Assembly: GCA_030950865.1 (NCBI GenBank)
Contig: JAUZQR010000128.1
Location: forward strand, 1-11,314
Length of the DNA stretch: 11,314 nt
Origin: Mariprofundaceae bacterium
GTDB taxonomy: Bacteria; Pseudomonadota; Zetaproteobacteria; Mariprofundales; Mariprofundaceae
Direction of reading: 5' to 3'
Each line of letters starts with the position of its first letter. Position 1 is the stretch's first letter. The notes below the pieces were generated by a model. The model worked only from the letters and a program-made list of their open reading frames with translations, made no database searches and was not told the DNA's origin. Shown here one piece after another: positions 166 through 11,314 of this stretch. Position numbers and translations under genes: made by a program.

Positions 166-996
166 TTAGAGGAGTTTCCAGAGGCGCTTGCCTTTAAACA
201 TCACACATTCCCATTTGGAATGATTCCCATTGGGAATTTCTGTCGCACCCGTAAATAAATAGCCACCTTTTTTCATCGTTCTTGCCAAACGATCAATCAC
301 ATTCTTTCGCTCTTCAGGTGAAAAATAAATCAATACATTACGACAAAACACAATATCAAAAGGCCCAAATCGGCGTACTTGGCTGACCAATGCATCATTA
401 ACCAAATTTGCTGTTTGAAACGTCAGCATTTCTTTTAACTCATCACATACAAACCAATCAAGACCTTCTTGCGTAAAAAAGCGCACCAATTGTTTGACTG
501 GCATACCCCGCTGCACTTCCATCTGAGAATATTTTGCCTCACGTGCATAAGAAATCGCACTTTCTGACAAGTCTGTACCTAAAATCGAAACACGTTTATC
601 TGCCATTGCCACAGTCTCGGAAGCTGTCATCGCAATCGAATATGGTTCCTGTCCTTTGGATGAGGCCGCCGACCATATTTTTATATTTCCATGGCAATTC
701 CCAGCATGTGTTAGCTCTGGAAACACCAATGTTCTCAAAGCTTCAAAAGGATAAGTATCTCGAAAAAACAACGTTTCATTGGTTGTCATCGCATCCAAGA
801 AATGATGCGCAAGCTTGCCATTTTCATCACGTTTAATTTGTTGAGCCAAGGTATCCATGTCAGAAATTTCAAAGTTGCGTAATAGGGTCTGCACACGCGA
901 ACGAATCAAATATAATTTACTATCATCCAGCACCAAACCACTTTTACGCAGTAAAAATTCCCGCAAATAACAAAATAGCTCTGGTCGTAGACTCAT
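166..996 (-). CDS. cheR: CheR chemoreceptor glutamate methyltransferase
   Basis: CheR transfers methyl groups from S-adenosylmethionine to glutamates on the receptor signalling helices, which drives adaptation. From the ATG at 996 the protein has 276 residues, the usual family length. The N-terminal helical domain ends with TTNETLFFRD (71-80), the typical CheR segment before the methyltransferase domain. SAM-binding signatures follow: WSAASSKGQEPYSIAM (108-123), GTDLSESA (140-147) and FDIVFCRNVLIYF (213-225). Near the C-terminus the common GHSES-type motif is replaced by GATEIP (250-255). There is no pentapeptide-binding insertion that I can recognise. I chose the ATG at 996 over an in-frame GTG at 1017 because it forms a 4-base ATGA overlap with the cheB stop. 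It is the last gene of the operon in the window, and its 3' end is duplicated in the left-edge inverted repeat. Confidence 0.96.
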   Translation of the reverse strand: MSLRPELFCYLREFLLRKSGLVLDDSKLYLIRSRVQTLLRNFEISDMDTLAQQIKRDENGKLAHHFLDAMTTNETLFFRDTYPFEALRTLVFPELTHAGNCHGNIKIWSAASSKGQEPYSIAMTASETVAMADKRVSILGTDLSESAISYAREAKYSQMEVQRGMPVKQLVRFFTQEGLDWFVCDELKEMLTFQTANLVNDALVSQVRRFGPFDIVFCRNVLIYFSPEERKNVIDRLARTMKKGGYLFTGATEIPNGNHSKWECVMFKGKRLWKLL

Positions 997-2060
997 AACC
1001 CACCCATTCCACAACACTTCATGATAGCGGCTGCAATATCATTAAGTGCTATAACCTCACTAGCAGCCCCTGCCTTTACAGTTTCTCCAGGCATCCCCCA
1101 AACCACACTACTGGCTTTATCTTGCGCAATAACATGCATTTTCTTATCGGCTAAAGCCTTTGCACCAGCAGCACCATCATTGCCCATGCCTGTTAAAACA
1201 ACAGCCATCGTACGAATACGCGGTGCCAATGCTGCTAGCGAATGAAATGTTACATCCACAGCAGGCTTGCAATGATTGACCCGCTCTCCATCCACCAAAT
1301 GTGCGCGTAATTGGGTTCCAATACGTTCAATTTCCATATGAATATCACCAGGCGCAACGTAAATACATCCCGCTTGCAATACCATGCCATCTTCTGCCAG
1401 TTTACATGTTAGAGTAGTATTTTTTTCCAACCGTTCAACCAATGAAATAAGAAACAATTTCGGCATATGCTGCGTGACCACAATTGGCACAGGAAAGGAT
1501 ACTGGTAACATGCTCAAAACCGTATGCAGCGCGACAGGACCACCTGTACTCGAACCAATCGCAATAATATCAGGGCAACTTCTACGGTTCCCTGTAGTGT
1601 TTTTCACCATCCTTGTCGGTTTATTCTTACCCACCCTACGTTGCGTAACAGTGGTAATACTTCGTGCCAATGGAATTTTTTCTTTTAATACTTTCTGCAA
1701 AACCTCCCTTGGTTTCTTTTCCAAACAAGTCGATTTCAAAATAAAATCATAAGCCCCAGATTCAAGCGCTTGAACAGTTTTTTCTGCACTGGTTTCTGAT
1801 TCATTGCTAATCACCAATACGCGCACCTCTGGCGCTTCTTCTTGCAAACATTGCAACACTTCAATACCCGTTAAAAATGGCATTTCCATATCCAGCGTCA
1901 CCAAATCAGGTTTGAGTGTTTTAATTTTCTGTAGCGCATCCCGTCCATCACGCGCTACGCCCAACACCTCGATATGCTCCAGCTCACTCATGCAGCCACG
2001 CAAAAAGGTGCGGAAAACCACATCATCATCAACAATCAATACACGTGTAGATTTATTCAT
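993..2060 (-). CDS. cheB: CheB protein-glutamate methylesterase/deamidase with receiver domain
   Basis: CheB removes methyl groups from receptor glutamates and is activated by phosphotransfer from CheA. It has 355 residues, the normal length. The receiver domain (about 1-125) has the acidic pair D11/D12, phospho-acceptor D57 in TLDMEMP and the conserved K109. A basic linker (about 126-160) leads to the esterase domain, where the catalytic triad is visible: S171 in IGSSTGGP, H198 in VTQHMP and D295 in TGMGNDG. Spacing between these residues matches E. coli CheB (S164, H190, D286) within one or two positions. The start ATG at 2060 overlaps the upstream cheY stop (ATGA), and its stop overlaps the cheR start, so the three genes are probably translationally coupled. 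With CheR it gives a complete adaptation system; no CheD is present. Confidence 0.97.
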   Translation of the reverse strand: MNKSTRVLIVDDDVVFRTFLRGCMSELEHIEVLGVARDGRDALQKIKTLKPDLVTLDMEMPFLTGIEVLQCLQEEAPEVRVLVISNESETSAEKTVQALESGAYDFILKSTCLEKKPREVLQKVLKEKIPLARSITTVTQRRVGKNKPTRMVKNTTGNRRSCPDIIAIGSSTGGPVALHTVLSMLPVSFPVPIVVTQHMPKLFLISLVERLEKNTTLTCKLAEDGMVLQAGCIYVAPGDIHMEIERIGTQLRAHLVDGERVNHCKPAVDVTFHSLAALAPRIRTMAVVLTGMGNDGAAGAKALADKKMHVIAQDKASSVVWGMPGETVKAGAASEVIALNDIAAAIMKCCGMGGL

Positions 2061-2440
2061 TTTTCGTACGCAATGCCAACAATATCTAGCTTATCCATTA
2101 CCATTTCTTTATCAAATGGCTTCATAATGTATTCATCCGCACCTGCTGCAAGCGCTTTCAACATGGATGGCATGCCCGTTTCTGTGGTGACCATAATCAC
2201 CGAAGGCTCTGTAATATGTTTGGCATCCGAGCGCAGTGCCACCAAAAAATCATAACCATTCATCACAGGCATATTCCAATCCAAAAGAACCACAGATATA
2301 TCATCATGCGCTTGCATTTGTTCTTGAGCCAACGCGCCATTGGCAGCTTCAAGCACTTCAAAACCAAGCGCCTGCATAATACGCCCCAATGAAATACGTA
2401 CGACCTTGGCATCATCCACAATTAATGCTTTTTTTGTCAT
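2057..2440 (-). CDS. cheY: CheY-type single-domain response regulator (second copy)
   Basis: A stand-alone receiver of 127 residues that would accept phosphate from CheA. It has the D9/D10 acidic pair, phospho-acceptor D54 in LLDWNMP, T85/T86 in MVTTETG and K107 in IMKPF, so all catalytic positions are intact. The start is supported by a GGGAGA ribosome binding site (about 2446-2451) just upstream of the ATG at 2440. It lies 25 bases after cheW and overlaps cheB by four bases. It differs clearly from the other CheY of this operon (5968-6345), so the two are not a recent duplication. Which one binds the motor switch cannot be read from sequence; the other could act as a phosphate sink or serve another output. 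Confidence 0.95.
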   Translation of the reverse strand: MTKKALIVDDAKVVRISLGRIMQALGFEVLEAANGALAQEQMQAHDDISVVLLDWNMPVMNGYDFLVALRSDAKHITEPSVIMVTTETGMPSMLKALAAGADEYIMKPFDKEMVMDKLDIVGIAYEK

Positions 2441-2465: not shown

Positions 2466-2966
2466 TCAATGTAATACTGCTTTATCAGGTGCGCCCTGCT
2501 CCGCACTGGGTATCGTCAAAGCAATAAACCTATCCACATTCACCAATACCAAAACACCTTGCTCTAATTTTAAAACGCCTTCACTTACTTGTCGCCAAAT
2601 AGCATCCAGTGAGCGCGGTGTTGGTTCATAATTATCGGGATCCAAAAGCATCACTTCACCTACATCATCCACAGTTAAACCAAAATCTTCACCCGAACTG
2701 GTTTCAATAATCGCCACATGACAAGATTCATCCTCAGCTCTCTCTGGCAAACCCACGACTTTGCGCACATCCAGTTCAGTCATCACCCGACCACGCAAAT
2801 TAATCAATCCAAGCACAGCATCGGGGCTCAAAGGCATTTGGGTTCGCTCCTGATTGGTTACCACTTCACGCACTTGCTGAACATGAAAACCAATCCATTG
2901 TTCCCCCACACGGCAGGTTAACAGTTCAGTATGCGCATGCTCTTTTACCGCTACCAATGCATTCAT
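2466..2966 (-). CDS. cheW: CheW coupling protein
   Basis: CheW links receptors to the CheA kinase in the chemosensory array. The 166-residue protein is one SH3-like CheW domain. It carries the family's central motif GLINLRGRVMTELDVRK (53-69), an N-terminal strand of the usual type (GEQWIGFHVQQVREVV, 21-36) and the GLTVDDVGEVM segment (96-106). A ribosome binding site GGGAG (2973-2977) sits six bases before the ATG at 2966. The gene begins 31 bases after the cheA stop and ends 25 bases before cheY. The stretch after residue 105 (LLDPDNYEPTPRSLDAIW) is typical of CheW proteins and shows no extra domain. Confidence 0.96.
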   Translation of the reverse strand: MNALVAVKEHAHTELLTCRVGEQWIGFHVQQVREVVTNQERTQMPLSPDAVLGLINLRGRVMTELDVRKVVGLPERAEDESCHVAIIETSSGEDFGLTVDDVGEVMLLDPDNYEPTPRSLDAIWRQVSEGVLKLEQGVLVLVNVDRFIALTIPSAEQGAPDKAVLH

Positions 2967-2997: not shown

Positions 2998-5922
2998 TCA
3001 AATACTGCTATCCACAACCACTGAACCTTCAACACTCAAAGGTCTTTTTTTCTTTATATTTGCCATCACTTCACCCAAGCCTTCGGTTAAACTCTGGCGA
3101 TCCAGCTTCAACATTACTTCCACAAACTTATCCCTATGAGTCATATCAATTTCATCCACAGGTGTTGCAGTGAGTGCAACAATCGGAATATCATCAAATT
3201 CTTCACGCTCTCTCACCCAATCAGTCAATTCATAACCATTCATATTGGGCATTTCTAAGTCTGTTAGAATTAAATCAGGTCGTCTTTCTTCCAAGATTTT
3301 ACATGCCTCAAGCCCATCTTTTGCCACCCATGCTTCATAACCCAAAACATCAAAAATTGGCATCACTAAATTCCTAAAAAATGCCGCATCTTCGACAAAC
3401 AATATTTTTTGTCGCAAGCTTGTATCGTCTGAATTGGGTGAACTTGATGCTGTACGTGTAAACCAATTTATATCTGCTTTTTTCACCACTTCAAACACAT
3501 CAATCACTTCCGTTGCCGTGCCATCAATCACTGATGTGCCTAAAAACAACGGATTTTCAGATTGTTTTTTAATTTCTAACGGTGTTTCAAGAATATCTTC
3601 CACCTGTTCAACCTGTAAACACATACGTTTATGCCCATCTGATAAGATTAAACCATACACCTCACCACTACATATTCGCTCTCCAACTTCAATCAACTCG
3701 CCCCAACGAATCACCGAGATGACATCATCACGGTATTGTAAGACCTCTGAGGTTCCAGAGTGTTCAATACGCTCAGCAGGAAAAAGTTCCAAGCGTTCAA
3801 TCAATACCATTGGAATGGCAAAGCGCTGCTTACCTTGAGAAAAAACTAAGGTATGTTGCAATTCATCCTTAGAAAAGTCATTTTCATCATCATTTTCAGC
3901 TTGGCGTATCGCCTCCACTTCTGGAGATAGTTGCATCAAGTTAGCCAGCTCATTGCAATCAAAAATTGGAATCACAATACCATCACCCAAAATACTGCAA
4001 CCACCATAAAACCCTAAATGTTGAAAGTGCACACCCAGCGGCTTAACAACAATTTCCTCAGCACCACAAATCTGATCTACCAGCACGCCAAAGTTTCGAT
4101 CTCCCAAATCAATCACCACAATCGAGCCTTCATCTTCAACTGTATCACTCAATTGCAATTTCTCTTTTAGTCGCATGATTGGCAATAGCTTTCCACGCAA
4201 ACGGTAAAATGTTTGCCCACCAATCACCCGCCATTCTTGCGAATCCTTGGGCGCACTCAATAGCTCTTGAATACTCATTTGCGGAATAGCAAAACGTTGA
4301 TTCTGACAACTCACAATCATCGCCGAGATGATTGCCAAGGTTAACGGAATGCGAATCCGCAGGGTTGTCCCTTTACCTGGCTCACTGCTGATATCGACAT
4401 TACCACCAACTTTCTCAATTTCGGTACGCACCACATCCATGCCAACACCACGACCAGATAAATTACTAACCTGCTCAGCCGTTGATAAACCCGCGTGAAA
4501 AATAAGTTGGAGTGCTGCTTTGGCACTAATCTTTTCACCTTGCTCTTCGGTCAAAACACCCATGGTGACAGCTTTCTTTTTCACCCGTTCTGCATCAATA
4601 CCAGCACCATCATCTTCAATAAGAATCACAATAAAGCCAGATTCTTGTGAAGCTGATAAACGCAACGTACCTTCAGCAGGTTTACCTGCTTTACGACGTT
4701 CATTGGGCATTTCAATACCATGATCGCAACTATTGCGAATAATGTGTGTTAAAGGATCTTTTAATGCATTTAGAATCGTACGATCCAGCTCTGTTTCTTC
4801 GCCATGCATCACAACAGATATTTTCTTTTCCAACTGTTTGCCCATATCACGAACAATACGAGGCACACTATTCCAAACACTTTGAATCGGTTGCATACGT
4901 GTGCGTAATAGCTTCGATTGTAGTTGTTCTGTAATATGATCGACATCACGGCTTACACGCACAAACTCCATATTTCCCGAAGCTTGAACCATTTGAACCA
5001 AACGATTACGGGTCAATACCAACTCACCGACTTGATTCATTAAAGAGTCCAATAAATCTACATCCACACGAATGCTACCAGAACTTTTTGGCTTCACAGA
5101 CCCTACATTTTTCACAACCGTTTTCTTAACAGGCACTGGGCTACTTTTTTGTGGCTCTGCCACAACTTTCTTCACTACTTCAGCTTTACTTTCAACACTA
5201 ACTTCAAGCTTAGAATCATCATCAGGAAGCTCAACATTAACTACTTCGGGAGCTGCTGGTTTCGCATTTTGAGCACCTTTTTTCACCACTACTTTCGCAA
5301 CACCCAACAGCTTCAAGGCATCGCCTGCTGTAAAACCATCCAATTCTTTCAACTTCGCAAAACCTACATCCATCACTGCTTGGGCAGAAACCAAGCCATT
5401 TTCTGCCAATGCAGCCGCAGCTTTTTCAGAGATATCCGATGCCCATGTTTGGAGCGTTTCCAGTCCTCCAGAAACACTTTCATTGCCTGTATCTTCTTGC
5501 TCAGCTTCAACAACTGAATTTTCACCGTCTGCCATCGTCGCCACCAAACGCTCAGCAGCATGCAAACGCTTAATCAAGCCACTATGATCTATATCTGGTT
5601 CTGCGCCTTCCGCTTCAAGCCCCTCCAACAAGCTTGTAATGGCATCCGCACACTCCAACAATAATGATACAAGATCTGCATTCATCGCAAATTTTAACGA
5701 ACGTATTTTACTTAAAAGGTTCTCACCCGCATGCGCCACTTTTTCCAACCCAACCAAACCAAGGAAACCACAACTGCCTTTCACAGTATGAATAGCACGG
5801 AAAATAGCTCCCAAAATCTCTTCATCTTGAGGATTGGCTTCTAAATCCATCAATTGTTGCTCGATGGCAGATAGGTTCTCGTTACTTTCCGTTAAAAATT
5901 CCGCTAATAGCTCTTCATCCAT
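2998..5922 (-). CDS. cheA: Hybrid CheA histidine kinase with HhH-like segment, two CheW-like domains and C-terminal receiver
   Basis: This is the central chemotaxis kinase, about 974 residues from the ATG at 5922. Order (numbered from that ATG): P1/HPt domain 1-105 with phosphorylatable H45 (RAIHTVKGS); a helix-hairpin-helix-like segment about 163-212 in place of a recognisable P2; a Pro/Val/Lys-rich linker to about 280; P3 dimerisation helices 283-345; P4 ATPase with N-box (HIIRNSCDHG, 393-402), G1 (EDDGAGID, 436-443) and G2 (GRGVGMD, 490-496); P5 CheW-like about 535-665; a second CheW-like domain about 690-820; and a receiver about 838-955 with D888 (LILTDLEMP) and a conserved Lys at 939. 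The ATG at 5922 is preferred over a GTG at 5949 and an ATG at 5940 because it has a well-spaced GGAG and gives the typical CheA N-terminus MDEELLAEFLTES. The receiver suggests autoregulation or a phosphate sink. Confidence 0.96.
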   Translation of the reverse strand: MDEELLAEFLTESNENLSAIEQQLMDLEANPQDEEILGAIFRAIHTVKGSCGFLGLVGLEKVAHAGENLLSKIRSLKFAMNADLVSLLLECADAITSLLEGLEAEGAEPDIDHSGLIKRLHAAERLVATMADGENSVVEAEQEDTGNESVSGGLETLQTWASDISEKAAAALAENGLVSAQAVMDVGFAKLKELDGFTAGDALKLLGVAKVVVKKGAQNAKPAAPEVVNVELPDDDSKLEVSVESKAEVVKKVVAEPQKSSPVPVKKTVVKNVGSVKPKSSGSIRVDVDLLDSLMNQVGELVLTRNRLVQMVQASGNMEFVRVSRDVDHITEQLQSKLLRTRMQPIQSVWNSVPRIVRDMGKQLEKKISVVMHGEETELDRTILNALKDPLTHIIRNSCDHGIEMPNERRKAGKPAEGTLRLSASQESGFIVILIEDDGAGIDAERVKKKAVTMGVLTEEQGEKISAKAALQLIFHAGLSTAEQVSNLSGRGVGMDVVRTEIEKVGGNVDISSEPGKGTTLRIRIPLTLAIISAMIVSCQNQRFAIPQMSIQELLSAPKDSQEWRVIGGQTFYRLRGKLLPIMRLKEKLQLSDTVEDEGSIVVIDLGDRNFGVLVDQICGAEEIVVKPLGVHFQHLGFYGGCSILGDGIVIPIFDCNELANLMQLSPEVEAIRQAENDDENDFSKDELQHTLVFSQGKQRFAIPMVLIERLELFPAERIEHSGTSEVLQYRDDVISVIRWGELIEVGERICSGEVYGLILSDGHKRMCLQVEQVEDILETPLEIKKQSENPLFLGTSVIDGTATEVIDVFEVVKKADINWFTRTASSSPNSDDTSLRQKILFVEDAAFFRNLVMPIFDVLGYEAWVAKDGLEACKILEERRPDLILTDLEMPNMNGYELTDWVREREEFDDIPIVALTATPVDEIDMTHRDKFVEVMLKLDRQSLTEGLGEVMANIKKKRPLSVEGSVVVDSSI

Positions 5923-5928
5923 ACCTTG

Positions 5929-5932
5929 CTCC
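5929..5932 (-). promoter_or_regulatory. Ribosome binding site that decides the cheA start
   Basis: GGAG on the minus strand lies six bases upstream of the ATG at 5922. The upstream alternatives, GTG at 5949 and ATG at 5940, have no comparable Shine-Dalgarno sequence. This supports the shorter CheA. Confidence 0.65.
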
Positions 5933-5967
5933 GAAGTCATACATTTCACTTAGAGTATCTATTCACA

Positions 5968-6345
5968 TTAAAACAGCATGCCGCCAACCACCTCAATCAA
6001 AGCATCAGGTTCAAATGGTTTCACCAGCCATGCTGATACACCCGACTCATGTCCAATAGACTTCTTACCCTCACCAGACTCTGTCGTTAACATCACAATC
6101 GGCGTTTCTGCATAGGCAGGTATGGCTCGAATATTTTGAATCATCGTGAGTCCATCCATATTCGGCATATTCAAATCGGTTAAAATTAAATCATAAGGGT
6201 TATCTGCCGATGCTGTTGCCATATCCAAACCACAAGCACCGTCTTTGGCTTCATCCACCTGAAAATCAACCTTTAGCAAGGTACGTTTCACAGTAATCCG
6301 CACCATGGTTGAATCTTCAACAATCAATATTCTTGGACCACTCAT
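5968..6345 (-). CDS. cheY: CheY-type single-domain response regulator (next to the channel gene)
   Basis: A 125-residue receiver with acidic residues E10/D11, phospho-acceptor D57 in LILTDLNMP, T87/T88 in MLTTESG and K109 in LVKPF. All catalytic residues for phosphotransfer are present. The start is the ATG at 6345: it has a strong AAGGAGGA ribosome binding site and forms an ATGA overlap with the stop of the upstream channel gene. An in-frame extension to 6411 would add 22 residues that are not receiver-like and would overlap the upstream coding sequence. It lies directly before cheA, with about 45 bases between stop and ATG. Its coupling to a gene whose product ends in a CheZ-like helical tail suggests that this CheY is the partner of that tail; this is inference from position. 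Confidence 0.95.
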   Translation of the reverse strand: MSGPRILIVEDSTMVRITVKRTLLKVDFQVDEAKDGACGLDMATASADNPYDLILTDLNMPNMDGLTMIQNIRAIPAYAETPIVMLTTESGEGKKSIGHESGVSAWLVKPFEPDALIEVVGGMLF

Positions 6346-6686
6346 AATTCCTCCTTCAAAACCATACGCTCTTCTTCCATCACATAACGCTGACTCACTT
6401 CCTCTTGCCATAATGCAGTCTGACCACTTTCAGGAACATGATTCGACCAATCCTTCAAACAACTTTTTACATTATTCAAACGCTGTGATACGCGATCAAT
6501 ATTTTGCAGGTCAGTCAAAGCCGCCATAATCAATTCTTCGACTTCTTCTGATACGCCCATATCAAGGATTTCAGTCAATTTGACCAAACCCTCTTCACAG
6601 CTCTCATTCAATAGTTCTAAGGAACCACCAACCTGCTTTTTAAGCACTCTTAACAATCGTTTATCCGCTTGCTGCGGCCACACTGA
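6342..6686 (-). other. CheZ-like helical tail domain of the channel protein
   Basis: Residues about 1070-1183 are predicted all-helical and follow an acidic, low-complexity linker. The segment ALTDLQNIDRVSQRLNNV (1125-1142) carries D1133 and Q1137 in DxxxQ spacing. In E. coli CheZ, D143 and Q147 in QDLTGQ have the same spacing and catalyse CheY-P hydrolysis. The match is short, so the assignment as a phosphatase is tentative. Direct adjacency to cheY and absence of another CheY phosphatase gene in the window support it. Confidence 0.5.
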
Positions 6687-9600
6687 ATCATTCATCACTT
6701 CACCTTCCAATACAGCCTTTTCCAACCCTGTTTCGGCTTGTTTTATGATACCCACACCTTTATTATCAATCTTGGATTCAACTTGCTTTGAAATTTCTTT
6801 TTCAACCACTTCTTCTACGTTTTCTTCTATAATGTCCTGCTGTATACTTTCAGGCGTTGCTTCAGAAGCCTCTTCACCCACGCCCTTAACATCTGCAACA
6901 ACCTTTTCTACCACGACTTCTTGTACAGGTATTTCAATGGCTACCTCTACGTCACCCTCTTCTGTTTCATTTGCACTCAACACGCCACGTCGACAAAATA
7001 ACAAGGTCACCGTTTGAGCAGGCACATCCATTTCCATGACAGGTGAACCAGCCAATAAATGCATGCGACTGCCCGTGTCATCCTGTGGCTGCGGAAACAG
7101 CTTGTTCAGAACAGTAAATGCCGTTTGTCCATCATGCTCAATTTCTGGCATCACATATGCCATAAGCATCCACCCACGGCGCAAGGCTTCTCGATATACA
7201 GGCACCCAATCCATGCCCGATTCAATTTCCACCAAACGCGTGGTTGCCACATCTTCAACAAGCACCGCATCACCCAACATGGCATCCATAAAAGCATAGC
7301 TTTTTTCATCTTGTTGGCTTTCCTCCTGATTCAAGTGCTTTCTAGCATGTGTAAGCAACTGCCTTGCCATAAACACGTCGTGAAAGGCATCTGGAGAACC
7401 AACATCCACTGCCAAATCAGGGTAATTCAATCCTGCTATTTCAAAAGATGAAACATGCTCACCACTGCGCGGCAATATCATCAACTTGGGTGGAGTCCAC
7501 CATTTCACCTTGGCTTTGCGCTCTGAGAGCACATGCGCCACTTCATGGAACCACAATTCAAGTAGTGAATCTTCACTACCATTGGACTGTTCTTCAGGAT
7601 AAAACATCATCACCTTGCAACCACGCAGCAATGATTCCCACACTTCTGTATCCAACCCATCCCAAGCATGTAGCGATACTTTCAACTCACATTGGCAATG
7701 TGCCGAAGCGCGTTCACACGCATCTTTTATACTACGATTTTGTAAGGTAAGTTTATCCTCATGCATCGTACTCAACACATGCACCGTAAGCTTATGATGC
7801 TTGAGAGCCATTTCTTCAATCATGGCAGGAAGACCTGCATGCCAACCTAAGAATATCATGGATAAATCCCAAGTTTCAGGCCATGTAAATTGTTTTAATA
7901 AATTCTGATGTGGTTGATTAGCATCCATCGACAAAGCACTTTCCATGATGCCCGACCAAAGCAATGTCGAGCCGCCCAAGCCCACGACATCAGTGAATAT
8001 CTCATTTTTCTTAGCACGCATCAAATCACTAAATAAAACGAACGAACCATCCTCACGCCGTGCTGCCAAAAGGTTTACACCTGATACAAAACAATCCGTT
8101 AACCAAGCATCCAACACTTGCTTTTCCTGACCCGCAGACACCATGACCATACCACTGCTAGCTTGCACTTCAAATTCCCAAGCCATGGTATTCAAGCCTA
8201 TTTCACCAGCTACCGCATCAAGCATACGAATACCCAACTCTGGCATCCAAGCGCAATGATGCATTTGATAAAGCATGCGGGCAGTCACAGATGCCGAGTT
8301 TAATACCGACATCGACATTGAATCGCTATATATCGATTGCAATCGTGTCGATAATTCTGCCTCTGAAATCATCATGCCATCGACTTTTAAGTCACGTACC
8401 AAATGATGGGTATCCACCAAGTTTTCTGTATCTAAAGTCTCGCTACCCTTGCGAAACAACACCAATTGACGAATGCCCTTCAAATGAAAGCGCGCCATTA
8501 AATCACGACTACCTGATGCTACTTCACGCACCGATAACCAACTACCAACACTGCTTGCTCCAGAAAGTGCCTGCCCATGAAAAATCCACACCGAAGACAT
8601 GCTTTGCCGCATGCGTGCAAACAACTTATCCAACCTTTTTAAAATCGCCAACGATTGATCGTTCCAGCCCGCCAAAACCATCTGCTCACGTGCTGATAAA
8701 GGGCTATTGCTCAATTCACGCAACATATATTGCATGACATTTGAACCAAGGCTAACCATTAATGCGAAGAAAAATACGCCCGAAAGCACCAGCACCGATG
8801 TTAATCCCACTAACCATGGTGAGAATGCTTCTGGTGTCGCAGCACCAGGGTCGGTTAGCACCCGAAAAACATACAACATCACCTGAAACGGTAAATAATC
8901 TGCCGATGTAATATTACCATCATCATTGATGTCCATTTCAGGATAAAGGTAGAGCACTGCCAATGAGCCCATAATCATCATCGCTACCAGCATGCCTGCC
9001 AACATACTGCTTTCATTGCGAACTTCTTGTATAGCAAGCACCCGCTTGGCTGCTTTGGCAATATTACCAACAGGGTTCAGCATCACTAAAAAACGAATAG
9101 CGCGTAAACCAACCCAAGCCACTGCCACACCAGGAATAAGACCCAACACAGCGATACTGGCAAGCATATCCAACGATACAAAAGCCAATTCTGCCTTTTT
9201 ACGTCCACCATTGGGCAAAACTTTAAGAATAGATACCGTACGACACACACCTTCAATCAATAAAAACACACCGATATACATCGCTACCGATGGCACGGCG
9301 ATGGCAACACATGCCAAAGCAACCACAACCAAGGCAAAAGGCAGGGAGTAAACAAAGGTATCGTGGGTAAGAAAACGAAAAATCCGTAACATACGCAGCA
9401 TATACATACCACGAAAAAGCCTAGCAACACGTAAATAAACAGCCTGCTGTAATGGATTCACTGGCATAAATAGGGCTGAAATAAGGCTAATCGTTGCCAA
9501 GCCATCCAATATCAAAAATACCAATTCTCCACGATTGCGAAAGTGATTCTCTTTTTGCAGCCAAAAGCGCAAACACCATTCAACCACAAAAAATACGCCC

Positions 9601-9893
9601 AATGTCGCCAATACAAAGCTATAGCGCTCAAACATGCATAACACGAGCGCAACAACGATTAAAATAGCATAACGAGGGTGTGAAAAAACACGCTCGCCCA
9701 GCAGCAGCCACTCACGGCGTGAATGCTCACCTGAAATCCAGCGTTTAACCCAAGCAGGCTGTGAACGCGGTGTTTTTTTCACATCAGCATCCGCCATCTC
9801 ATCTAAAACCTCATGCGAGACTTTATCTGATACACTCAACACATCGTTTGCATCGTTTTGTGCCACCTTCACCACCTTACTTACTTCCGCCAC
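6342..9893 (-). CDS. Large CASTOR/POLLUX-like ion channel with tandem voltage-sensor-like domains, EF-hand loop and CheZ-like C-terminal tail
   Basis: An 1183-residue inner-membrane protein. Hydrophobic segments span about 71-385. The first four-helix unit (71-175) has an S2-like E105/R109 pair, D130 in S3, and an S4 with R155, R158, R161, R167, R170 and R173. The second unit (183-288) repeats the plan with fewer charges (R264, R267). S5 is about 296-317 and S6 about 358-385, with a 12-residue EF-hand loop (321-332) and the filter-like TDPG (347-350) between them. Two Rossmann/RCK-like regions begin at MVLAGWN (405-411) and MIFLGWH (679-685), as in the plant CASTOR/POLLUX (DUF1012) family. 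An acidic linker (976-1070) leads to a helical tail with DRVSQ (1133-1137). The start is uncertain: GTG at 9893 lacks a clear Shine-Dalgarno, and GTGs at residues 7-9 or ATG at residue 33 are possible. Ion, ligand and output are unknown. Confidence 0.9.
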   Translation of the reverse strand: MAEVSKVVKVAQNDANDVLSVSDKVSHEVLDEMADADVKKTPRSQPAWVKRWISGEHSRREWLLLGERVFSHPRYAILIVVALVLCMFERYSFVLATLGVFFVVEWCLRFWLQKENHFRNRGELVFLILDGLATISLISALFMPVNPLQQAVYLRVARLFRGMYMLRMLRIFRFLTHDTFVYSLPFALVVVALACVAIAVPSVAMYIGVFLLIEGVCRTVSILKVLPNGGRKKAELAFVSLDMLASIAVLGLIPGVAVAWVGLRAIRFLVMLNPVGNIAKAAKRVLAIQEVRNESSMLAGMLVAMMIMGSLAVLYLYPEMDINDDGNITSADYLPFQVMLYVFRVLTDPGAATPEAFSPWLVGLTSVLVLSGVFFFALMVSLGSNVMQYMLRELSNSPLSAREQMVLAGWNDQSLAILKRLDKLFARMRQSMSSVWIFHGQALSGASSVGSWLSVREVASGSRDLMARFHLKGIRQLVLFRKGSETLDTENLVDTHHLVRDLKVDGMMISEAELSTRLQSIYSDSMSMSVLNSASVTARMLYQMHHCAWMPELGIRMLDAVAGEIGLNTMAWEFEVQASSGMVMVSAGQEKQVLDAWLTDCFVSGVNLLAARREDGSFVLFSDLMRAKKNEIFTDVVGLGGSTLLWSGIMESALSMDANQPHQNLLKQFTWPETWDLSMIFLGWHAGLPAMIEEMALKHHKLTVHVLSTMHEDKLTLQNRSIKDACERASAHCQCELKVSLHAWDGLDTEVWESLLRGCKVMMFYPEEQSNGSEDSLLELWFHEVAHVLSERKAKVKWWTPPKLMILPRSGEHVSSFEIAGLNYPDLAVDVGSPDAFHDVFMARQLLTHARKHLNQEESQQDEKSYAFMDAMLGDAVLVEDVATTRLVEIESGMDWVPVYREALRRGWMLMAYVMPEIEHDGQTAFTVLNKLFPQPQDDTGSRMHLLAGSPVMEMDVPAQTVTLLFCRRGVLSANETEEGDVEVAIEIPVQEVVVEKVVADVKGVGEEASEATPESIQQDIIEENVEEVVEKEISKQVESKIDNKGVGIIKQAETGLEKAVLEGEVMNDSVWPQQADKRLLRVLKKQVGGSLELLNESCEEGLVKLTEILDMGVSEEVEELIMAALTDLQNIDRVSQRLNNVKSCLKDWSNHVPESGQTALWQEEVSQRYVMEEERMVLKEEL
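6349..6356 (-). promoter_or_regulatory. Strong Shine-Dalgarno for the cheY at 6345, inside the channel gene
   Basis: AAGGAGGA on the minus strand lies three bases upstream of the ATG at 6345, within the last codons of the channel gene. With the ATGA overlap it makes coupled translation of the two genes likely and fixes the cheY start. Confidence 0.8.
8898..8933 (-). other. EF-hand-type calcium-binding loop in the S5-S6 connector of the channel
   Basis: Residues 321-332 read DINDDGNITSAD. This has oxygen ligands at loop positions 1 (D), 3 (N), 5 (D), 9 (T) and 12 (D), Gly at 6 and Ile at 8, matching the canonical 12-residue EF-hand/dockerin pattern. It directly follows S5 (about 296-317) and precedes the TDPG filter-like motif. 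If the pore has the usual topology, the loop faces the periplasm. Confidence 0.75.
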
Positions 9894-9949: not shown

Positions 9950-11314
9950 CTAACGGCGACGCAATTCGGCTAAAAAATCACGTACCCGCTGTGACAAACC
10001 CTCGCCTTTTTGGCGAATATCTGTCGATGAAGTCAGCACATCTCCTGCCGCTTTACCTGTTTCAATCGATGCTTCTGTCACCGAAGCAATCGCTTCAGTC
10101 ACACGCTGTGTTGCATCTGAGGCATATTGCACACTTTGAGCGATTTCACGGGTTGCTTCATTTTGCTCTTCTGTAGCAGCAGAAATCGCTTGGTTAATAT
10201 CATTCATCTTTTGAATAGTTTCACCAATATGTCCAATCGCTTTGGCAGCACCATCACTTTCTTTTTGAATGGATGAAATTTGACCCGCAATCGTTTCAGT
10301 CGCTTGAGCAGTTTGATTGGCAAGCTCTTTGACTTCTCCAGCAACCACTGCAAAACCACGTCCAGCCTCACCCGCTCGTGCCGCTTCAATACTCGCATTG
10401 AGTGCCAATAAATTGGTTTGTTCCGCAATATCCGTAATCACCCGAATAACCTGACCAATTTCTTCGGATACCTTGGCTAATTTTGTAACATTTTGATTGG
10501 TCGTTTTAGCTTCTTCCACTGCTTGGCCTGACATATCCACAGCATTGCGTACTTGACGTGTTATTTCTGCGATTGAGGCTGTCAATTCTTCTGCCGCAGA
10601 TGCCACAGTCATCACATTTTCATTCGCTTCTGCTGAACTATGGGCAACGCTTTCTGCTTGTGTTGTGGATTGTTCGGCAGTGCTAGAAAGGGTTTCACTG
10701 GAAGCCTGCATACCCACCGATGCTTCAATCAAATCATTGACCATGGTTGCAACATTGCTTTCAAAGTCTTCCGCTAACTTATGGCCTTCAGACGCATCAT
10801 TCCACGACACCATAACAGAGTCCCATTCACCCTCATGATTATCAATAGCATGCGCAGAAAATTCGATTTGATGACCATCTGCCACAAAACTCGCCGTCAT
10901 TGGAAAGCCTGCTCTATTGGAAAGAACTTTGCGCTGGTGCGCAGGGTCTTTATGAAAAATATCAATGCATTGCCCAATCATATTATCTACAGGACAAGGT
11001 AAGAAATTTTGAAGTTTCTTAAATAACTCAGTTGCGGCTGGATTCATATAGCTAATTTTCAAATCTTTGGCACCTGCAATCATGGTTGCCTGTGGAGATG
11101 CCTCTACCACACGTCGCAAGAGTGTAGCTTCAGATGATTGCTTTTGAAAAATAGCCAACGACTCCAACATTTCACCAATCTCGCCTCCTTCATTGGCAGT
11201 CACAGGAATCACATCACCTCTTTCCAAGGCATCCATTGATATTGCCACCTCTGAAATCGGACGGCTAACCGAGCGAGCAATATACCAAACACTGAAACCC
11301 ACCAGTAAAAATAC
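9950..11314 (-). CDS. Methyl-accepting chemotaxis protein, 5' end cut by the window
   Basis: This chemoreceptor controls CheA through CheW. About 454 C-terminal residues are present; the frame stays open to the right edge, and the first visible residues ([13 protein letters not shown]) are the end of a transmembrane helix, so the GTG at 11302 is not the real start. Order: TM2, HAMP (about 11-55 counted from 11302), a PAS-like domain (about 62-170), a helical link, then the cytoplasmic signalling hairpin. The highly conserved tip is [19 protein letters not shown] and [15 protein letters not shown] (encoded about 10320-10424). The protein ends in LAELRRR with no NWETF-type CheR/CheB tether. The sensory domain before TM2 is outside the window. 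The TAG stop at 9950 is 56 bases before the GTG of the channel gene. Confidence 0.95.

Follow-up and report, generated by a model that had tools for sequence, protein, structure and literature searches.

A channel-like protein with a DxxxQ-bearing helical tail encoded beside cheY in Mariprofundaceae: a candidate ionic input to chemotaxis

Why does a chemotaxis operon carry a gene for what appears to be an ion channel, and what could such a channel do to the response regulator encoded next to it? The question is raised by a stretch of 11,314 nucleotides from a Mariprofundaceae bacterium (assembly GCA_030950865.1, contig JAUZQR010000128.1), hereafter the window, in which one gene immediately before cheY joins a predicted channel to a helical tail that is a candidate phosphatase of phosphorylated CheY (CheY-P). 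To our knowledge, the routes by which membrane potential or ion influx enter bacterial chemotaxis are largely open. The reading favoured here is that this gene gives rise to a tail-carrying channel and to a free tail, both acting on CheY-P; as a whole it is put forward tentatively, as a serious possibility. The genome to which this contig belongs is incomplete (1.7 Mb in 438 contigs, completeness 79.6%), and all window coordinates given below for genes and protein features are on the minus strand.

A first-pass annotation of the window had described a single 1183-residue frame at 5968..9893. The frame itself was recovered in an open reading frame reading of the window, with 1183 codons uninterrupted from a GTG (6342..9893; the true start is uncertain), but the bounds were too wide, as position 5968 takes in cheY (5968..6345, assigned by profile match) and the channel gene ends at 6342. 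The described four-base overlap with cheY is real: the fusion stop TGA (6342-6344) and the cheY ATG (6343-6345) overlap as ATGA, an arrangement kept in 23 of 24 loci checked (L030 was not counted because the GTGA there is not the cheY start). The placement between a receptor gene and cheY-cheA was also found to recur. Among loci L001-L021, of which L001 is the window, a gene for a methyl-accepting chemotaxis protein (MCP) lies upstream of the tailed channel in 19/19 cases and cheY downstream in 15/15 cases where the flank is available, the remaining flanks ending at a contig or locus edge. L015 is cut by the locus end, and a fuller stretch of it (L163) has a free tail gene between fusion and cheY. 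The survey of che operons that the first pass had suggested thus shows a conserved place for the channel in tailed loci. A search with the fusion protein, scoring only the 7992 candidates with most words in common, returned 76 proteins, the window's own among them; identities were 42-100% and query coverage was at least 95% for 58 of the 76, which indicates that the fusion is not due to chance. Where records are named, the relatives belong to the Zetaproteobacteria (Mariprofundaceae, Mariprofundus and Ghiorsea). An assembly artefact as the origin of the fusion was rejected, the fusion being present in many separate genomes. At one locus (L078, G026:C9) channel and tail lie in different overlapping frames, which could reflect a true gene split or a frameshift from sequencing.

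An AlphaFold model built with 44 sequences (mean predicted local distance difference test score, pLDDT, 73.7) was read as ten membrane helices, two RCK-like domains, a disordered linker and a helical tail. Voltage-sensor-like and pore helices had been proposed on the first pass and are present in the model; the single bundle then assumed is not, since the membrane helices form two tandem four-helix voltage-sensor-like bundles followed by a pore. The second bundle had been overlooked, as had an internal start possibly making a free tail and a tail-less sister channel in a flagellar operon, both described below. Bundle 1 (residues 59-174; 9372..9719), defined by the AlphaFold helices and a profile search of PDB sequences, fits the S4 pattern of voltage sensors, with periodic Arg residues and acidic partners in S2 and S3. 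Its S4-like helix (9375..9431) has Arg at every third position (R155, R158, R161, R167, R170 and R173); R155, R158, R161 and R170 occur in 65/65 ungapped rows, R167 in 64/64 and R173 in 57/65, while E105 in S2 is conserved at 90% or above and D130 in S3 is invariant. Model confidence is low at residues 168-179. KCNQ voltage sensors made up 18 of the 19 PDB-sequence matches of a two-family bundle 1 profile (E 0.34-2.3, none significant alone), and the fusion protein had no match to Ion_trans (PF00520) at E 1.

Bundle 2 (residues 184-287; 9033..9344) was delimited from the model and the family alignments. That the two bundles are a tandem repeat is supported by profile-profile comparison with hhalign, for which all E-values and probabilities are single-comparison values: helices 1-4 and 5-8 align at 96.9% probability over 92 columns in the sister family, and bundles 1 and 2 at 87% over 43 columns in the tailed family, against at most 0.5% in five bundle-versus-pore control alignments. 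Bundle 1 of the tailed family matches that of the sister family at 98.4%. Two observations weigh against a second voltage sensor: bundle 2 reaches only 34% in the same comparison between families, and its S4 helix retains just two Arg residues (R264 and R267) in the tailed family. Sister-family bundle 2 had no match among PDB sequences at E 5, and whole-family profiles gave only weak matches there (best E 0.27 and 0.021).

The pore (S5-P-S6, residues 289-395; 8709..9029) was placed by the AlphaFold model and structure comparison. At the filter it has Asp-Pro-Gly (residues 348-350; 8844..8852), which is found in 66/66 rows of an alignment of homologues of at least 1100 residues, shorter ones having been dropped and the window protein being included twice (P0001, P0002). 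Between S5 and the pore helix lies an EF-hand-like loop, DINDDGNITSAD (residues 321-332; 8898..8933), the first and last Asp of which are kept in 66/66 tailed rows and 32/32 sister-family rows. By topology this loop would be periplasmic, and it is a possible periplasmic Ca2+ site kept in both channel families.

The RCK1-RCK2 gating-ring part (residues 402-970; 6984..8690) had been described as a double RCK region of CASTOR/POLLUX type, a description that holds by structure and fails by family profile. The best structural match by Z was LjCASTOR (Z 20.9 over 478 residues, root-mean-square deviation 5.1), followed by Slo1 (Z 18.2), while ranking by Foldseek E-value placed a BK channel slightly ahead. 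The window protein had no match to PF06241 (Castor_Poll_mid) at E 1, nor had 16 sister proteins at E 0.1. Neither Pfam nor NCBIfam assigned the fusion protein to a significant family, and the likeness to CASTOR is therefore drawn from structure and from the sister family, which aligns with four bacterial CASTOR-like channels at 96.45% over 510 columns. The sister family also aligns at 96.4% with single-voltage-sensor TVGYG RCK channels, and Slo-like_RCK matches 7 of its 16 proteins (best E 1.8e-4). Asp-Pro-Gly is likewise the filter of three bacterial CASTOR-like channels (L141-L143, FLRLTDPG), and a fourth, L140, has Asp-Ala-Gly; all four are PF06241 loci. Against a CASTOR affiliation, at least five other bacterial PF06241 proteins (five of seven displayed, from 20 loci fetched) have TVGYG, so that Asp-x-Gly is not the rule among PF06241 proteins; when the tailed family is set against bacterial CASTOR-like channels, the probability is no more than 57%, over 102 columns, and drops to 0.6% for the pore by itself. 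The fusion therefore looks and probably works like a CASTOR-type channel, and membership of the CASTOR family is not claimed. CASTOR is described as a channel for Ca2+ that is itself under Ca2+ regulation; it has a double RCK ring, and four membrane segments are predicted for it (PMC6697748). The plant nuclear channels CASTOR, POLLUX and DMI1 share with the fusion the double RCK ring fold, a filter other than TVGYG and a pore formed by the last two membrane helices, whereas CASTOR has four predicted membrane helices and the fusion has ten in the model, a tail, a place in a che operon and no PF06241 match. Slo/BK and single-voltage-sensor RCK potassium channels resemble it in having a voltage-sensor-like bundle, a pore and RCK1-RCK2; they differ from it in that the fusion has two bundles, and Asp-Pro-Gly instead of TVGYG.

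Beyond the gating ring, the acidic linker noticed on the first pass (residues 973-1069; 6687..6977) is disordered in the model (pLDDT <50) and leads into the tail (residues 1061-1183; 6345..6713), which model and alignment define as a helical hairpin (helices 18-51 and 56-92 in tail numbering; tail model pLDDT 69) with two short helices. As first described, this tail carries a DxxxQ motif (D1133 to Q1137; 6483..6497); it lies on the second hairpin helix and is present in 31/31 tail rows, which include genome G034 twice (L020, L029). A C-terminal RYVMEEER motif (residues 1169-1176; 6366..6389) was identified in the tail alignment. DxxxQ, with AxxFQ beside it, is the active motif of CheZ (PMC7750401). 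Like CheZ (PF04344), the tail places a DxxxQ pair on a helical hairpin (in the tail, by the model), has a short C-terminal helix and has cheY as its partner gene; unlike CheZ, it lacks FQ preceding the D, is shorter and is fused to a channel. Homology to CheZ, to which the first-pass annotation had likened the tail, was not found. The tail has no match to PF04344 at E 1, and no homology was detectable by profile-profile comparison (probability 0.2-3.1%), whereas two CheZ sets used as a positive control, one near the Pfam model and one distant from it, find each other at 99.7%. The modest pLDDT of the tail model also counts against a CheZ-like action, as does the fold search, which gave generic hairpins with none at E 0.001. 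Compared with the four-helix bundle fold of CheZ, the monomer model of the tail has a hairpin; the absence of a CheZ chain from the matches listed for the tail neither supports nor excludes CheZ likeness.

A relative of the tail was found on another signalling protein. At 95.9% over 65 columns, a stretch that takes in DxxxQ and YxMxxER, the tail aligns with the C-terminal end of a gammaproteobacterial MCP-like protein from genome G145 and of 13 database relatives of that protein (P0078-P0090), one of them named Rheinheimera. The G145 protein is encoded directly before cheY (L075:4376-5584, minus strand) and ends in a DxxxQ / YTMQDER tail, and the YxMxxER pattern is common to the window tail motif and gammaproteobacterial MCP tails. 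The Rheinheimera-type protein is thus alike in carrying a related tail module on a signalling protein immediately before cheY and unlike in that the carrier is MCP-like rather than a channel; G145 also has a canonical CheZ elsewhere.

The distribution of the tail was compared with that of known CheY-P phosphatases. The tail was found in 44 of 299 genomes of the phylum, 43 from the order of the window and the other being G145. CheZ was found in 0/41 genomes of the order, and a PF04344 search of the window's own genome gave 0 matches; G139, one more genome of the family, has a partial CheZ match of 20.6 bits, below the family cut-off of 30.7. Tail or channel is present in 23 of these 41 genomes, in a table compiled by hand from separate searches in which many genomes are incomplete: 22 have tail or channel together with cheA, one has tail or channel alone, two have cheA alone and 16 have neither. 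No CheC or CheX match was found in 14 of the 23 tail/channel genomes, the window's included. G016 encodes the tail separately, in a gene flanked by those for an MCP and CheA, and no channel was found in the genome. In G018, which has cheA and no tail, CheX is encoded between cheR and a receiver gene. The che operon of that genome (L167, G018:C1:2058000-2077000) is from the same order as the window and lacks channel and tail. Several counts speak against the tail standing in for CheZ: 20 or more of the order's genomes are without it, G022 has cheA and no match to tail, CheZ, CheC or CheX, and 9/23 tail/channel genomes have a CheC- or CheX-type match, some of them weak.

The tail is likely also made as a free protein from an internal start. 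A Shine-Dalgarno-like stretch precedes ATG codon 1067 (6693..6707), the proposed start of a free tail of 117 residues. At this point the linker ends in EGEVM, five residues ahead of a conserved Trp-Pro. The Shine-Dalgarno stretch is the strongest among the 59 internal ATGs of the gene (-11.4 kcal/mol, compared with -11.7 for cheY), and the equivalent ATG has the strongest in 12 of 17 complete channel-tail frames, which were listed by hand, and a rank of 4 or better in 17/17. Single-tail proteins have Met at the start place in 56/57 cases and the EGxxM motif in 48/57. In proteins with two or three tails, Met occurs there in 10/14 last modules and 6/15 earlier ones, and EGxxM in 10/14 and 1/15, respectively; these counts are not independent because duplicated modules share descent. 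In genomes G038, G039 and G040 the last tail is encoded separately; Met is found at the equivalent place, and its Shine-Dalgarno stretch scores -8.4 to -10.4 kcal/mol. This Met is the only start before Trp-Pro in the frame of the separate G039 tail, and weaker in-frame GTG codons also lie upstream in G038 and G040. The three fused tails of G039 lack the start Met, as does the preceding tail of G040, which is cut by the contig start. The G039 locus (L163:1799-7370, G039:C24) has a 1715-residue frame of channel and three tails, then a fourth, separate tail before cheY. Against an internal start, a synonymous-codon test, which took only frames fitting a motif pattern, gave a weak trend that was not significant (mean percentile 0.40; 16/24 below 0.5), so that EGEVM may persist for protein reasons.

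A sister family of about 950 residues, with no tail and approximately 21-30% identity to the tailed channel over long stretches, was found among flagellar genes in 3/3 genomes opened, the gene names being a reading of Pfam matches. The order in L160 (G022:C64) is fliG, fliH, fliI, fliJ, a gene for an MgtE_N protein, which we take to be MotE-like, a gene for a 155-residue protein, the channel, fliK, flgD, flgE and motA. L161 (G128:C4) has fliG, fliI, the MgtE_N gene, channel, fliK, flgD and flgE, the scan having covered frames other than those in the fliH and fliJ places. In L162 (G017:C9) the channel is followed by fliK, flgD and flgE, and the upstream frame scanned is a polysaccharide-export gene on the opposite strand. 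A 155-residue protein between the MgtE_N gene and the sister channel (L023:4286-4753, minus strand) has no Pfam match at E 0.001. Only a C-terminal piece of the sister channel was found in the window genome (G000:C264), which also encodes FliM.

These results are consistent with a model in which the fusion gene would yield a channel with tethered tails and the free 117-residue tail. The first product would be a cation channel, a tetramer if CASTOR is a guide, built from the tandem voltage-sensor-like bundles, a pore with Asp-Pro-Gly for the potassium TVGYG filter and a CASTOR-like RCK1-RCK2 ring. The tail would dephosphorylate CheY-P in the manner of CheZ and substitute for the missing CheZ; D1133 and Q1137 would be its catalytic residues, and CheY would probably dock on the C-terminal helix. 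CheZ works as a dimer, and mixed dimers could therefore bring free tail to the channel; tethering would in this way hold part of the phosphatase there. Membrane voltage, divalent cations such as Ca2+ or a ligand of the gating ring might then alter the local lifetime of CheY-P. This last step, from gating to phosphatase activity, is doubtful. About 90 disordered linker residues argue against direct conformational coupling, and tethering and clustering are consequently likelier than rigid coupling.

The same disorder would also fit a reading in which the tether is everything: a mostly free phosphatase, a share of which is anchored at the membrane or receptor array by a channel that serves ion homeostasis for motility and whose state has no effect on the phosphatase. 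Extra tails in series in some homologues, the free tail genes and the tail-less sister channel of the flagellar operon all fit this alternative, which we regard as unlikely; a simple anchor leaves unexplained why the same kind of channel occupies the same place in tailed loci. The overlap of the fusion stop with cheY, the modelled position of the tail on the gating-ring side and the sister channel adjoining flagellar genes would suit a signal running in the opposite direction, with CheY-P docking on the tail to gate the channel, chemotaxis controlling ion flux or membrane potential, and DxxxQ resetting the signal. This is distinctly unlikely, as the G016 tail gene, for which no channel was found, suggests that the tail works independently of a channel. 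Least probable, and very unlikely, is a tail that binds CheY or CheA as an adaptor with a coincidental DxxxQ: the likeness to CheZ is at motif level and CheC- or CheX-type proteins accompany the tail in some genomes, but D and Q are kept in every tail row, no CheZ was found in the 41 genomes of the order and CheX sits in a che operon that lacks the tail.

The phosphatase model, extended to both channels, would amount to electrical chemotaxis in Zetaproteobacteria: the che-operon channel would directly set CheY-P lifetime through tethered and free tails, the flagellar-operon sister would act at the motor, and the membrane energy state would steer swimming in opposing oxygen and iron gradients. 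This extension is speculative and, as it stands, improbable. If correct, it would mean that iron-oxidising marine bacteria may steer by direct sensing of ions or membrane voltage, through one gene beside cheY that joins a channel to a candidate CheY-P phosphatase and a sister channel among flagellar genes. The CASTOR-type channel fold would then gain a role in bacterial signalling, and a channel whose subunits each carry two voltage-sensor-like bundles would be added to those described. As handles, the locus provides a defined channel protein for patching, the 117-residue fragment for assays and the internal start codon for mutation.

The first-pass statement that no bacterial chemotaxis system of this layout had been described agrees with the literature covered: narrow searches, with most subscription journals outside their coverage, turned up no account of a fusion between a channel and a CheY phosphatase, and the terms 'ion channel' and 'CheZ' are absent from the available main text of two Zetaproteobacterial genome papers (PMC3179512, PMC8250860). 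Two known cases are related by function or context. In alkaliphilic Bacillus the ion channel NaVBP has a role in both motility and chemotaxis, which parallels what is proposed for the fusion (Ito 2004, as cited in PMC549065 and PMC4225499); it differs in being a sodium channel, with no Che-protein fusion mentioned in the available text. Prokaryotic Cys-loop channels, for which a role as chemotaxis receptors has been proposed (PMC549065), are likewise tied to chemotaxis by context but are ligand-gated, with MCP-N or Cache sensor domains, and the same partial source mentions no CheY-phosphatase part.

The remaining genes of the window complete the operon, in the order MCP, fusion, cheY, cheA, cheW, second cheY, cheB and cheR, all on the minus strand. 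The MCP gene (9950..11314) is cut by the window end and has an MCPsignal match, with weaker HAMP and PAS matches below cut-off. Profile matches identified cheA with a C-terminal receiver domain (2998..5949), cheW (2466..2966), the second cheY (2057..2440), cheB (993..2060) and cheR (166..1017). Given the receiver domain on CheA and the pair of cheY genes in the operon, drainage of CheY-P via a second receiver is possible.

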